NCBI GenBank assembly: GCA_029555205.1 | Contig: JAKPTB010000036.1 | Coordinates: 1-64,000 of the forward strand | Direction of reading: 5' to 3' | Length of the DNA stretch: 64,000 nt | Source: Bacillota bacterium | GTDB lineage: Bacteria; Bacillota; Desulfotomaculia; Desulfotomaculales; Pelotomaculaceae | Shown: piece after piece, positions 308 through 6,389 of the stretch | Position numbering within the stretch: position 1 is the first letter of the stretch | Layout of the letters: each line of letters starts with the position of its first letter | Notes under the pieces: model-generated | The model's input: the letters and a program-made list of their open reading frames with translations, nothing else | Databases searched by the model: none | What the model was told of the DNA's origin: nothing | Translations under genes and position numbers: made by a program

Positions 308-1276
308 AAAGGACCCTCCCAATCAATAATTTATAAAAAGGGTGAAATTGGTGTTGGTGATATTCCTTTAATTTATTTAATTTATATTTAATCTTTAATA
401 TTTCATCAACAAATAATGATGACCTAATTGTATACTTTTACCTATTTCGTCATTATCCTGCATAACCATGCGATTTTTTGAAGTTTTCTGAAATTACATA
501 ACCCACACTTAGGTCTGTACTTACTGTGGTAAGGGTGAAGGAGATGGAAGCTTCACTCCAGCTCCACAAAGCTCCGCTCACCTGCGGCTCTTTTACGCCT
601 GGCACGGTGGTCTCTTGAATCCTCTCGGCTAGGGCAGACAACTGGACAGACTCCGCAGTATCGTTTATGGGTCTGGTCGTTAGATTTCCAAGCCTCCGCG
701 GATCCTGTAAATACCATGCTTTACAGTTATACCGCTGAGCCGCTGCTCCTAAGGTGCGCTAACATAACTTGCGGCACACCTCAGGAGCCCTTTACTTGCT
801 ACACTCCTGGAAGGCTACATCTTCCTGGAACTGCCGTCCCCAAAAAGCGCCGCGCGCGTGGCCGGTCCGCTTCCGGGTCAGGCCTCTGCTTGTCCGGGCC
901 GGCCACACTGCGCTCAGCTGTACCTCTCCGACAAAGCCATCATCCACCCGAAAACTGGCTGCCGCCCAGAAAAGCTCAACCCCAACCCCCCAACCCCCCG
1001 CCCCAATCATGGGGCCGGAGGGCTTTAACGTGCGGCGCAGCTGTGGTTAAAGCCGCCTCCCTGGCCTCCCATTGTAACGCAGCTCCGGCCCCCGCTCGCA
1101 TGCCGGCTCGCGTGGGCCTCCCGGCACGCTGTCAAGGGTAAAGCCTGCGCAAAAAAATTCTCTACAGCCAAACCTTATGGGCCGCATTTTTTTGCTCCGG
1201 CCCTGCGCTGTCGCTCCGGCCCTTGACAGCGCGCCGGACGCTGCGTCGTGCGCAAAATAAAAGGAGGCGGTTTCAG

Positions 1277-1606
1277 GTGAAAGGCATTCTGGCGAGAGTA
1301 GATGAGGGCAGGTTGGGCCGGGCGGTGGCCGGCCTTGTGCAGCGCAGCCTGGTGGTTGAGGAGGTTGTGCGCGATGGCGGGTCTATCCGCGCCCGGGTGC
1401 GCAGCACCGGCGTCCGTGGCGTGCGGGTGCACAGCGTGGGCCTTACGGTGGTCGGGCGCGGCCACGGGGTTTTCTGCGGCTGCGAGGACTGGCGGCAGCG
1501 GGGTATAGTTTGCAAGCATATCGCTGCCGTGGCGCTGCACGAGCTGGGTGCCCGGGCCAACGCCCGCAGCACCCGCAGCATGGTGGGCCTGCTTCTGCAG
1601 TTGTAG
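1277..1606 (+). CDS. small stand-alone SWIM zinc-finger protein
   Basis: Motif FCGCEDWRQRGIVCKHIAAVAL matches the SWIM CxC...CxH pattern; AAGGAGG upstream of GTG at 1277 (ORF track start 1223 probably too early). Confidence 0.65.
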   Translation: MKGILARVDEGRLGRAVAGLVQRSLVVEEVVRDGGSIRARVRSTGVRGVRVHSVGLTVVGRGHGVFCGCEDWRQRGIVCKHIAAVALHELGARANARSTRSMVGLLLQL

Positions 1607-2347: not shown

Positions 2348-3145
2348 TTATAAGCGTACATCACCTATATTCTCCAACTTGTAGTGCTCACAGGATTTCC
2401 AAGGCATCTCACATTTTAAATGTGGTTTTATCGTTCCTTTATTGCCGTCGTATTCGTAATAAAGGGTTTGGACATCACATTTTTCCGTCCAGTTCATAAG
2501 CAGATTCATAGCTATACCTACTGCGGTCGAGGCAAGAACTCCATTTGACCAAATTACCTGAGGTCTGAATCCCGCAGCACCGTATCTCATTGCCTCCTCT
2601 GCAAGAACAGACTCATTCAGAAATCCGTAGCATTTCATACAGGGAAACCCCGGAATGCTTGCAATGACCTGACCGGACATTCTTGGCGGCTCATTATCTA
2701 CCTTTTTTACATCCATGCCGATATCAATATAAGGTATTAACGACCGCCTGGTATAAGCCTCGAGTTCAGCGCGGTTTTGATAACCATCCAGACAACCGAA
2801 AATGATATCGCACGGTTTCAGATAGTCGGGTTCCTCCTGCCACCTTCTGTTGACCTTGGTAATGACGGCATCAGGTACTAGCCCTCGTATGAGCCTTACC
2901 GCTATTATCATTTTTGACAATCTCAGCTCAACATCGAGTTTCGTAGCACCAACAAGGCGATTTAAGTTGGTATCCTCAATTTCATCGTAATCATATAGGA
3001 CATAGTGTTTGAACCCAATATGAGCCAGTTGCTGAACAATTTGTGAGCCCCCGCCTCCGAGTCCGACAATCCCGATTAAACAATTTTCAAGTACGTCATC
3101 CAAACTCTCCCCAAGAAATGATTGGCGATTATTTTGTACACTCAC
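2348..3145 (-). CDS. E1-like ThiF/MoeB-family adenylyltransferase of a ubiquitin-like system
   Basis: GIVGLGGGGSQIVQQLAHIGFKHYVLYDYDEIEDTNLNRLVGA nucleotide-binding motif; CxxC pair CMKC and later Cys residues. Confidence 0.9.
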   Translation of the reverse strand: MSVQNNRQSFLGESLDDVLENCLIGIVGLGGGGSQIVQQLAHIGFKHYVLYDYDEIEDTNLNRLVGATKLDVELRLSKMIIAVRLIRGLVPDAVITKVNRRWQEEPDYLKPCDIIFGCLDGYQNRAELEAYTRRSLIPYIDIGMDVKKVDNEPPRMSGQVIASIPGFPCMKCYGFLNESVLAEEAMRYGAAGFRPQVIWSNGVLASTAVGIAMNLLMNWTEKCDVQTLYYEYDGNKGTIKPHLKCEMPWKSCEHYKLENIGDVRL

Positions 3146-3644
3146 TGCTATGCCCCCCTATCCAATCATATTGGAGCGGCAAGCCCACAATTGTATAACG
3201 GAAAATATCCAGATAAGCTTCTTTCCCTGGAAACCATACCCGGGCCATCATTTTGTCGTTACTCAACAGCAGAAAACCGTGGGGCATTTTGGAGTCGGCA
3301 TTTCTAAATGACCGTAATAAGTTCGGGTGGTCTGCTAAATCGTCCCGGCTGAACCTTGGAAATCCACGGCCGGCATGAATATGAGCATGGAGAATACCCT
3401 CCCGGTTTTTGCCAGCCCGCTTCATGGCCAGTGCTATACCACGATGATCGATCCGGGCTCCGACTGTCATATCTTCAATATAAAATTCATCCGGGACCGG
3501 CTCATACCCGGTAGCAACCAGAACCGCACCGCCGGCGGGTTTTATAAATATATAACCCACCCGTTCATAGGCAAAGGGGTGGGAGCGACGTAAGTCGCTC
3601 CTCATTTCTTTGTGAACTGCATCGGTCATTCGCAACTGCATCAT
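3129..3644 (-). CDS. JAB/MPN-domain metallopeptidase (deubiquitinase-like)
   Basis: HAHIHAGRGFPRFSRDD resembles the JAMM HxH...S..D motif; overlaps the E1 and E2 genes. Confidence 0.85.
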   Translation of the reverse strand: MMQLRMTDAVHKEMRSDLRRSHPFAYERVGYIFIKPAGGAVLVATGYEPVPDEFYIEDMTVGARIDHRGIALAMKRAGKNREGILHAHIHAGRGFPRFSRDDLADHPNLLRSFRNADSKMPHGFLLLSNDKMMARVWFPGKEAYLDIFRYTIVGLPLQYDWIGGHSSECTK

Positions 3645-3982
3645 GCCACCATCCCCCTCAAATGGCTCATAATCATATTCATCAGGGGCATATCCTTAAT
3701 ATTATTGTACGAAAAAGCATACCATTGCACTCCGAGTATTAAAAATTGTCCATTCCAATTAACCTGTTTCGTGGTTTGGATACGTTCTTTGAAGAACAAT
3801 CGTGATGTATAGCCGCTGTGAGTTTGGGGACAAAGAAGCGCATCGGTTATTTCAGGTGTGCATCCCGGGGGCATTTTTAGCCCCGGGATATATAGATAAA
3901 CATGCCCGCCTTCTTCAAATTCCCGAACACCTGGACCAAATTGTGCCTTTAATTCCTCAAGTTGCTCTTCCGGGTATATCAT
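3641..3982 (-). CDS. prokaryotic E2-like protein (E2 family E type)
   Basis: MIYPEEQLEELKAQFGPGVREFEEGGHVYLYIPGLKMPPGCTPEITDALLCPQTHSGYTSRLFF...; ATG at 3982 preceded by AAGGGGG; lies between Ubl and JAB genes. Confidence 0.75.
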   Translation of the reverse strand: MIYPEEQLEELKAQFGPGVREFEEGGHVYLYIPGLKMPPGCTPEITDALLCPQTHSGYTSRLFFKERIQTTKQVNWNGQFLILGVQWYAFSYNNIKDMPLMNMIMSHLRGMVA

Positions 3983-3995
3983 CTTGCTGACCCCC

Positions 3996-4286
3996 TTAGG
4001 AAGAACAGCCGGACGGCGCACAGGACTTAAAACGTTCTCCACCTTTGATGGTGACGGCATCATTATCGTTTAAAGGTACTTCGTAATTCGGCATCTGATA
4101 AAGAATATCGGTTGCGGGAACATTGCCGAGAGCTTTAATCTCAGCCACCGTTTGACGGCCACGGTGTATCGCTACCGCTTCGTCATTGACATAAATCGTG
4201 ACCATATTTTTCCCATGATTATCATTATGGCTCCCAGTTCCTTTGAACTCTTCATGCTCGCGATTAGTGTTTTCTTTTCCCGGCAT
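3996..4286 (-). CDS. ubiquitin-like (multiubiquitin-family) protein, single Ubl domain
   Basis: VTIYVNDEAVAIHRGRQTVAEIKALGNVPATDILYQMPNYEVPLNDNDAVTIKGGERFKSCAPSGCSS resembles the bacterial multiubiquitin beta-grasp pattern; operon context. Confidence 0.75.
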   Translation of the reverse strand: MPGKENTNREHEEFKGTGSHNDNHGKNMVTIYVNDEAVAIHRGRQTVAEIKALGNVPATDILYQMPNYEVPLNDNDAVTIKGGERFKSCAPSGCSS

Positions 4287-4523
4287 AGTTAAATACCTGA
4301 CCTTTCATTAATATTTGGGCTTTTAGTCAGGAAATTAACTAAAATTTCCGTAACTTGGCACAAGTCCGGAAGGAAATACATAAAATACGGCGAACATTAA
4401 TATACTGACGTAGTCCACCAAAGGGAAACCTGTTTATCTGTGAGTTTCCCCCGGACTTGGCGGGATAGCAGGGTTACCCGACCTTTCTATCCGCTTAGCA
4501 GCTTTCAAACTTGGTAAATTCAC

Positions 4524-4566
4524 AGTAAAAAGAGCATCGGCCAGGATGTTCTTTTTACTTTTTTAA
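4524..4566 (+). terminator. strong intrinsic terminator
   Basis: AGTAAAAAGAGCATC-ggccag-GATGTTCTTTTTACT stem followed by a T run (TTTTT). Confidence 0.75.
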
Positions 4567-4732
4567 TCTCTGCGAAGCATACCACCCCCTTCATTTTTTT
4601 GGAAACCTCTTTGCCAATCTCATTATAAACTGGAAATATTTTTTTTGTAAAGTTATATTATCAAGTATACAATTTTTGTTTTTATGTATATAATAATATA
4701 TAATTTAAATATTTTTAAAGGACGGGGGGTTT

Positions 4733-5884
4733 ATGGATCAAAAAATAATCGGCGCAAACCTTCGCCGGATTCGTGAGGCAAAGGGATTGAGCCAATCCCA
4801 GGTAGCAGAGCTAGCCGGGATTTCAAGGATTGCTTATCGAAACATCGAAAACGGCAATTCAACCCCAAAAGTATCAACCTTACAGAATATTGCTTCAGGT
4901 GTTGATGTAAAGCTCCAGGACTTGTTCGTTCCGGTCCGCACCTTAAAGAGAGTCAGATTTCGATCATCTAAAAAGATGAATAGCAGGGACAATGTTTTAA
5001 CCGAGGTGGCACGGTGGCTGGATGATTTTAATTACCTGGAAGAATTGTTGAACGACAGAAACGAATATCTATTTAAAGCTCTCGCCAAAAAGTTATATTC
5101 GATGCCCGATGGTGTTGACAAAGCTAAGTACGCAGCACGTGAGGCAAGAAAAAAGTTAAAGCTTAATGATAAAGAGCCAATCCGCGATATTGCTGGTCTG
5201 CTTGAATCGTGCGGAATAAAAGTGTACCCTCTAAGCCTTGTGTCGGATGGTTTCTTCGGTTTATCTGTTGCTGAGGAGGATGGAGGTCCTGCTATTATCG
5301 TAAATGTTTGGGAAAGAATTTCCGTTGAGCGATGGATTTTCAGCGCCGCTCACGAACTCGGCCATTTGCTTCTCCATCTTGACGCCTACGACGCTGATGA
5401 AAGTGCTGAAGACGACGCCCAGGAGATTGAAGCAAATGTCTTTGCTTCCCATTTTTTGATGCCGGAAGAAGCTTTTAATTCGGAGTGGCACGATACTCGC
5501 GGCTTGCCCCTTGTCGATCGAGTGTTTAAAGTAAAGCGGATATATCAGGTTAGTTACAAGACTGTCCTATACCGTCTTTCTGAAAGTTTAGGAAATTCCA
5601 TTTGGGGGAAATTCTATAGCGCATATAAGCAGAGAACCGGCAAGACATTAAGCATCACGGATGAACCGGAAGCCTTGTCCCCGGATAAATTCCAAAAACA
5701 ATCGCCGGAAGCACTGCGTTCCCAGGAACCGGACTCCCTATCACCATCACACTTTATGGAAGATCGTTTATCAAGACTGGTTCGTAAAGCTATTGAAGAA
5801 GATGAAATCACCATGAGCCGTGGAGCAGAAATTCTCAGGCAGGAACTGGAAACAATGCGGAATATTGTTTCTTCATGGGTGTGA
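4733..5884 (+). CDS. XRE-family HTH + ImmA/IrrE metallopeptidase
   Basis: N-terminal HTH (IGANLRRIREAKGLSQSQVAELAGISRIAYRNIENG); AAHELGHLLLHLD HExxH and EIEANVFASHFLMP. Confidence 0.92.
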   Translation: MDQKIIGANLRRIREAKGLSQSQVAELAGISRIAYRNIENGNSTPKVSTLQNIASGVDVKLQDLFVPVRTLKRVRFRSSKKMNSRDNVLTEVARWLDDFNYLEELLNDRNEYLFKALAKKLYSMPDGVDKAKYAAREARKKLKLNDKEPIRDIAGLLESCGIKVYPLSLVSDGFFGLSVAEEDGGPAIIVNVWERISVERWIFSAAHELGHLLLHLDAYDADESAEDDAQEIEANVFASHFLMPEEAFNSEWHDTRGLPLVDRVFKVKRIYQVSYKTVLYRLSESLGNSIWGKFYSAYKQRTGKTLSITDEPEALSPDKFQKQSPEALRSQEPDSLSPSHFMEDRLSRLVRKAIEEDEITMSRGAEILRQELETMRNIVSSWV

Positions 5885-5888
5885 ATAA

Positions 5889-6389
5889 ATGGAGAGAAAA
5901 AGGATTCTGATATTAGATGCTAACACTCTCATTGATTACTTAGAATGCGACAGGACAATTATAAAATTGATTTGTCGCTATGTAGGTCAAATATATTTAG
6001 CTACTCCTGTCTTAAATGAAATTAATGAAATTGATGAGGACGGTTGTATTGAAATTGGAATCAAGTTGTTGGGACCCGAATTGGAACAGGTTATGTCTGC
6101 AGCAGCGAGAAAAGGTCCTTTGTCTTTCCAAGATAATTTATGTTTAATTCTTGCCAAAGAACATGGTTTGACATGTGTGACAAATGACAAAGCTTTAAGA
6201 CGTGCATGCGAGCTTCAAGGTGTGCCACTGATTTGGGGGATTGAGCTGATTTGTATATTGGTGGAATCCGGCGGGCTGCCTGTTAAACACGCACAGAATA
6301 TTATTTTAACAATTCAAAGGAATAATCCGAAATATATCACAGACAGTATCGTAAAAAGTGCCTTTAAAAGATTAGGAATCACCGTCTAA
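5889..6389 (+). CDS. PIN-domain protein, probable toxin partner
   Basis: LILDANTLIDYLE N-terminal Asp motif, SFQDNLCLILAKEHGLTCVTNDKALRRACE C-terminal acidic motif; 4 nt after the preceding stop. Confidence 0.85.
   Translation: MERKRILILDANTLIDYLECDRTIIKLICRYVGQIYLATPVLNEINEIDEDGCIEIGIKLLGPELEQVMSAAARKGPLSFQDNLCLILAKEHGLTCVTNDKALRRACELQGVPLIWGIELICILVESGGLPVKHAQNIILTIQRNNPKYITDSIVKSAFKRLGITV

Follow-up and report, generated by a model that had tools for sequence, protein, structure and literature searches.

A Bub-Type Ubiquitin-Like Operon Divergent to an HTH-M78–PIN Gene Pair and Preceded by a Putative Leader RNA in a Bacterium of the Desulfotomaculales

The window, i.e., the whole stretch of 64,000 nucleotides analysed here, lies at the start of contig C77 in a genome of 2.96 Mb in 173 contigs, and it carries a small operon for a ubiquitin-like protein (Ubl), an E2-like protein, a JAB peptidase, and an E1-like enzyme. 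This locus is probably a Bub-type conjugation operon under the control of a divergently transcribed HTH-M78 gene, with a leader RNA serving either as a further layer of control or as an RNA of its own. The four-gene core is already known as a kind of operon, while the regulatory setting, namely the HTH-M78 and PIN genes, the back-to-back promoters, and the leader RNA, is new, and the whole locus is regarded as a regulatory variant of a Bub-type operon. The first-pass annotation correctly linked the genes to the bacterial multi-Ubl/E2/JAB/E1 neighbourhoods of Iyer, Burroughs, and Aravind, among which they match operon type 6e of Iyer et al. Its view of the cassette as an under-described system has to be given up, since the same kind of operon was described as type 6e in 2006 and named Bub in 2025–26. 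Nor did it register the HTH-M78–PIN pair or the leader RNA.

Gene Organization of the Locus

Inspection of the open reading frames reproduced exactly the four minus-strand genes proposed earlier, with their coordinates (Table 1), a 13-nt gap between the Ubl and E2 genes, and the subsequent overlaps of 4 nt (ATGA) and 17 nt. Such a four-gene arrangement is far beyond chance. The ATG of the E2 gene is preceded by a Shine–Dalgarno-like AAGGGGG sequence, and the longest mechanical ORF for this gene starts at 4063. Folds, motifs, and profile matches uphold the identities of the genes as Ubl, E2-like, JAMM, and ThiF-type E1. Among the genes scanned around the operon, there is neither a CD-NTase nor an E3-like gene, and only one Ubl domain is encoded, as had been noted before. 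The supposed spore-forming lifestyle is consistent with the presence of Spo0A in the genome.

Approximately at positions 650–2340, the window bears a GC-rich block (up to 67% GC versus about 45% in the surroundings), which includes a SWIM zinc-finger ORF (1223–1606, plus strand). DNA related to this block (76–83%) is also found on contig C100 of the same genome.

Table 1. Positions of genes and predicted regulatory elements (window numbering unless a locus is named).
Feature	Position	Strand	Description
E1-like adenylating enzyme (BubD-like)	2348-3145	-	265 aa, GTG start, ThiF fold
JAB/JAMM metallopeptidase (BubC-like)	3129-3644	-	171 aa, ATG start
UBC-fold E2-like protein (BubB-like)	3641-3982	-	113 aa, ATG start
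Ubl (BubA-like)	3996-4286	-	96 aa, ATG start, single beta-grasp domain
Putative structured leader RNA	4296-4499	-	five helices over about 200 nt; immediately ahead of bubA, ends near its ribosome-binding region
Leader copies in related loci	L011:2299-2492; L012:3615-3806; L013:3187-3377; L109:4158-4363; L110:5785-5978; L115:3795-3987
Conserved hairpin	4524-4559		15 bp; between promoter and leader; fits terminator consensus on the plus strand
Putative bub promoter	4622-4651	-	TTTACA-18-TATAAT, 11/12; similar spacing and -10 in relatives
Operator-like element	4658-4672		TTATCAAGTATACAA; beside/overlapping the divergent promoters
Putative HTH-M78 promoter	4666-4694	+	TATACA-17-TATAAT, 10/12
Fused HTH + M78 (ImmA/IrrE-type) peptidase	4733-5884	+	HELGH at 207-211
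PIN-domain protein (VapC-like)	5889-6389	+	PF01850 E 1.9e-4, just short of the cut-off

Relation to Known Ubiquitin-Like Operons

Type 6e operons were described from proteobacteria, cyanobacteria, and actinobacteria as having one to three Ubl repeats, JAB and E1 without rhodanese, and a Cys-less E2/RWD-like protein, sometimes encoded by a separate gene between Ubl and JAB+E1; the E2 branch was called probably inactive (PMC1779556). The window operon has one Ubl domain, a Cys-less UBC-fold protein, and a JAB gene adjacent to an E1 gene without rhodanese, which agrees with this description. It differs in that JAB and E1 are separate genes, Ubl is single, and the Y protein (DUF6527) is missing, though this metal-binding protein is counted here as optional in 6e/Bub rather than defining. 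On the basis of the 6e description and of the comparison with the Bub operon of Citrobacter, the operon is filed as Iyer type 6e/Bub-type and placed in a branch whose UBC-fold protein stands alone, whose JAB and E1 are not fused, and which lacks DUF6527. Bub operons, cited to Gong 2025 and Ye 2026, have been counted at 544, and phage protection by them is stated as not shown (PMC13373217).

All four domain classes are shared with the Citrobacter BubAB–BubCD–DUF6527 operon (PDB 9ea4, 9ea5, 9ea8, 9eae, 9eav), in which, unlike in the window, Ubl is fused to E2 and JAB to E1, DUF6527 is present, and CapK/CapS-like genes lie upstream. No homologue of the Citrobacter DUF6527 protein was found in the window region or in any other locus searched. 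Alphaproteobacterial plasmid operons of Methylovirgula, Bradyrhizobium, and Methylocystis (L004–L009) likewise consist of four unfused genes arranged as in the window and, in most cases, have divergent HTH and ImmA/IrrE genes. Their Ubl is a three-domain protein of about 235 aa, separate genes encode HTH and peptidase, the C-terminal tail of E1 is longer, and the short intergenic region leaves no room for a leader RNA.

Membership in type II CBASS (Cap2/Cap3) was rejected because E2 and E1 are not fused and because a scan of the genes surrounding the operon revealed no CD-NTase. The PADLOC E1–E2 models match only a short stretch of the E1 of the window operon.

Ubl

The match of the window Ubl to Multi_ubiq in Pfam (E 0.0055) falls short of the cut-off. 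Searches of PDB sequences with phmmer/hmmsearch gave nothing significant for the window Ubl and E2, whereas three-Ubl relatives do match solved multi-ubiquitins; hhalign of the same two proteins against two-sequence Citrobacter profiles recovered no match either. Structure prediction (AlphaFold with a PDB search) yields a beta-grasp fold for the Ubl, as had been proposed: the model has a pLDDT of 78 overall and about 90 in the domain, and its top PDB matches are bacterial multi-ubiquitins (Z 9.3–8.7) and Citrobacter BubA (Z 7.7).

The protein ends in CAPSGCSS, in accordance with the family motif F-x-S-...-P-x-G-x-S-S. In approximately 82 sequences compared, Gly at position −4 is found in 77, Ser at −2 in 75, and Ser at −1 in 73. 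The crystallised Citrobacter BubA is labelled 155–229, and in the close homologue from L091, residue 229 is Gly, with an E2-like domain following shortly after in the same chain, which supports processing after Gly. By analogy, BubC would cut the window Ubl after the equivalent Gly93.

UBC-Fold Protein

The E2-like protein of the window has no Pfam match on its own, and a homologue search with this protein alone gave no match in 100 relatives or in genome contigs. The UBC fold anticipated by the first-pass annotation is predicted by AlphaFold and PDB search. The AlphaFold2 model, built on 48 E2 homologues, has a pLDDT of 95.6, and its best PDB match is chain C of 9eae (Citrobacter BubCD–BubB; Z 12.1 over 109 residues). 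The next match is the Tsg101 UEV domain (Z 6.4), and true E2s score lower.

No invariant Cys is present among 84 homologues of the UBC protein. The segment from strand 4 to helix 2, which holds the Cys site of E2 enzymes, is free of Cys in the window protein; 22 of the 84 homologues have Cys there, but only at scattered positions. Cys51, present in 49 of them, was considered as a catalytic residue and rejected: in the model, it falls between strands 3 and 4, and the other 35 homologues lack it. As the protein has no conserved catalytic Cys, a textbook thioester relay through it appears unlikely from the sequences, and it would serve as a scaffold or work via a non-thioester intermediate. Ye et al. 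reportedly describe an unusual intermediate, which is taken here as a lead only.

The first-pass annotation referred to the Bil pathways, and these proved to be the wrong comparison. It is very improbable that the operon is a Bil-like antiphage system tagging phage structural proteins via classical E1~Ubl and E2~Ubl thioesters. The set of Ubl, E2, JAB, and E1 is indeed common to both, the UBC fold is present, and Bil operons (BilABCD) are established defence systems (PMC13373217, PMC11354881). However, the CEHH motif of BilB supplies a catalytic Cys, and BilD comprises an inactive and an active adenylation domain plus a Cys domain (PMC11354881), while the window encodes a UBC protein without a conserved Cys and a one-domain E1, so that the catalytic Cys residues of the Bil E2 and E1 have no counterparts here; besides, no other structure comes close to BubB as a match. 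Formal membership in Bil was rejected on the same grounds, namely the lack of a conserved E2 Cys (CEHH) and an E1 that is a single ThiF domain of 265 aa.

JAB Peptidase and E1

The window JAB has no Pfam match on its own, but all JAMM residues (E27, H88-x-H90, S99, and D102) are present and are invariant or nearly so across 87 homologues. The hhalign probability of the window-type JAB against Citrobacter BubC is 96.

The 265-aa E1 is recognised as ThiF (Pfam E 1.1e-26), and a domain search of the protein revealed neither rhodanese nor a second E1 domain. Its best PDB sequence match is Citrobacter BubCD, and hhalign of the E1 profile against BubD gave 99.8; in the E1 tree, a very long branch lies between the branch of the window and Citrobacter BubD. 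The conserved Cys residues are C168, C171, C251 (with H253), and the core residue C111 (numbering without the start codon), of which the CxxC...CxH set (C168, C171, C251, H253) is a probable zinc site. What had been called a complete conjugation/deconjugation cassette is complete as to the four gene classes, but its textbook sense is doubtful given a UBC protein without a conserved Cys and an E1 whose conserved cysteines are confined to the probable zinc ligands and C111.

The features of E1 bring up another reading, in which Ubl, E1, and JAB form a sulfur-carrier or cofactor system of the ThiS/MoaD kind, with Ubl being adenylated, thiocarboxylated, and used in biosynthesis. E1 resembles ThiF, MoeB, and TcdA, keeps the probable CxxC/CxH zinc site, and has no conserved free catalytic Cys. 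Little credence can be given to this reading, as a UBC-fold partner is encoded in nearly every locus, there is no rhodanese or sulfur gene, the G-x-S-S end of Ubl needs processing, and the best structural matches of Ubl are multi-ubiquitins and BubA. With a single small Ubl, a UBC protein free of a conserved Cys, and JAB and E1 on chains of their own, the operon represents a minimal Bub-type system suited to reconstitution.

Distribution of the Operon

A genome scan with the E1 alignment gave 147 relatives, from which 80 loci were kept (81 with the window), and the gene profiles for the locus survey were built from the plasmid relatives. All four genes are found in 76 of the 81 loci, with the strict Ubl-E2-JAB-E1 order by ORF start in 74, and JAB and E1 are fused in 21. 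A short Ubl ORF (no more than 135 aa) occurs in 20 of the 81, about a quarter, and hence the single Ubl of the window is ordinary.

The nearest full loci belong to two Syntrophomonadaceae MAGs and to a contig binned as Fermentimonas, with E1 proteins 72% identical to that of the window. The latter contig falls in the Syntrophomonadaceae MAG clade and may be misbinned. E2 is rare and patchy in the order and phylum of the host, being present in one of 113 genomes of the order and in two of about 400 sampled in the phylum. No E1 relatives were found in viral contigs and phage records.

Three loci (L014 from Cohnella panacarvi, L084, and L072) contain JAB and E1 with no recognised Ubl or E2; in L084, an ORF for a TonB-type outer-membrane receptor occupies the position expected for Ubl/E2. 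In many alphaproteobacterial Bub loci, an S8 peptidase is encoded downstream of the operon (L004, L005, L045, L047, L050, L051, L053, L061, L065, L066, and L085), with an ATP-binding protein also annotated in L004 and L005. The S8 peptidase is a possible further partner.

Divergent HTH-M78 and PIN Genes

The fused HTH-M78 protein encoded divergently to the operon is RmrA- and CapP/CapH-like according to PADLOC and is a probable repressor/sensor. About 48 of 89 loci, roughly half, have HTH/M78-type genes close to Ubl, which is in line with the 219 of 544 Bub operons accompanied by CapW or by CapH and CapP (PMC13373217). An HTH repressor and an M78-type peptidase divergent to an immune-type operon are also what characterizes the CapH+CapP arrangement, though in the window the two are fused in one protein and followed by the PIN gene.

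The PIN gene is conserved together with HTH-M78 in relatives. The same gene architecture as at 4733–6389 is known for VapBC52 of M. tuberculosis, which consists of a fused HTH–IrrE antitoxin and a PIN toxin and in which ssDNA triggers self-cleavage of the antitoxin (PMC13273310). Unlike in VapBC52, the pair in the window is divergent to a Ubl operon, and the M78 loop that leads from HELGH to the third ligand contains no Cys, the only one being Cys160. Consequently, no sign of the "cysteine switch" known from reports on VapB52 and CapP is discernible here, and the pair resembles VapBC52 without being filed as one.

This likeness raises the question of whether HTH-M78 and PIN form an independent toxin–antitoxin module merely located beside the operon, with the operon controlled otherwise, e.g., by the leader RNA. 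Such independence would fit the VapBC52-type architecture and the occurrence of HTH-M78 (with or without PIN) apart from Bub in several relatives, and it deserves consideration, albeit as a rather doubtful reading. The Syntrophomonadaceae MAGs and G127 retain the divergent layout, unrelated HTH/peptidase pairs stand at the same position in many distant loci, and the pair recurs in G036 in divergent orientation to a different Ub-like operon (E2–E1 fusion and JAB). Furthermore, the putative promoters are back to back over a conserved element: TTATCAAGTATACAA is conserved upstream of HTH-M78 homologues both with and without Bub. Control of the operon by the HTH-M78 protein is, hence, the favoured reading, and the locus may provide a testable link between HTH-M78 DNA-damage sensing, an RNase toxin, and protein tagging.

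A Putative Leader RNA

Between the predicted bub promoter and the Ubl gene, the window and six related loci (Table 1) share a presumable structured leader. The alignment of these seven sequences, all from one clade, has 96% of cells paired and eight pairs with two-sided changes; its covariation score was reached by none of 500 shuffles, and the structure collapses to 28–50% paired in slid registers (one-column slide). A covariance model strongly matches the window, G047, G006, G127, and the three MAG loci; the matches in G085 and G191 are weak and partial, and each lies next to the same HTH-M78 gene. The only leader match in a viral contig (L122) was rejected as a separate instance because it is the same locus as G047. 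The leader is found in a single copy per genome and only at related loci, and it is kept in L110 although the Ubl operon is gone. A search of Rfam revealed no matching family, and the leader thereby brings an unexplained component, regulatory or RNA, into a ubiquitin-like system.

Conserved promoter DNA or the remnant of a mobile element might mimic such an RNA. The small, single-clade alignment would agree with this, as would the modest z-scores of single-sequence folding (−2.3 and −1.3), but the explanation is unlikely in view of the two-sided changes, the degree of pairing, the shuffling test, and the collapse of slid registers, as well as the location of the leader downstream of the predicted promoter and its confinement to one copy per genome, always at this locus.

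Possible Mode of Action

Under the Bub-type reading, BubC would process the G-x-S-S end of Ubl by cutting behind the conserved Gly(−4), and BubD would adenylate the exposed Gly. BubB, devoid of a conserved catalytic Cys, might dock on BubD and hold the activated Ubl in place for its transfer onto a nucleophile of the target, either directly or via a non-thioester intermediate, and BubC might also take Ubl off its targets. The HTH-M78 protein is supposed to bind between the back-to-back promoters and repress both; ssDNA arising from damage or phage infection would activate its peptidase, and cleavage of the repressor part would release the PIN RNase along with the Ubl operon. The leader RNA could provide a second layer of control or act by itself. 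Conjugation, induction by DNA damage, and phage defence are functions proposed for the locus by analogy with its relatives.

Loss and Replacement of the Operon in Relatives

In relatives whose HTH-M78 proteins are 72–84% identical to that of the window, the Ubl operon is eroded, absent, or replaced. G047 retains Ubl and 22 residues of E2, while in G127 Ubl, E2, and JAB remain, with a transposase-like sequence at the expected place of E1. Only the leader is left in G006, and part of the leader and the E1 tail in G191. In G036 (L113:4085-7792), HTH-M78 and PIN are divergent to an E2–E1 fusion, a JAB gene, and a PDC-M11B-like ORF. Eroded or replaced operons beside a kept HTH-M78 gene fit the idea of a stable controller–PIN core with an exchangeable Ubl operon. 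Such relatives may be viewed as natural experiments in which the repressor, PIN, and the leader outlast the conjugation genes.

It is tempting to go further and suppose, tentatively, that the locus is a dual-output defence switch, in which HTH-M78 would sense ssDNA and release the Ubl operon together with the PIN RNase, while the undescribed RNA of about 200 nt would gate the operon or be a working part itself (e.g., a target or decoy of PIN), with repressor and PIN as the stable core and the Ubl operon lost or replaced.

In G127, the transposase-like sequence (L115:5132-5455) directly follows the JAB gene, and bubD is missing. One more conserved element is a 54-aa ORF (MAKNTG..GTWVKRD..TGRFMD..GG.PFKGV.KE) without a Pfam match, which in three Bub-remnant loci occupies the stretch separating HTH-M78 from the leader and is also present in a distant Bub locus (L109:4463-4624, minus strand; L110:5526-5687; L124:4901-5062; L080:1829-1987). 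In the window, it is reduced to a 5-codon ORF at 4563–4580.
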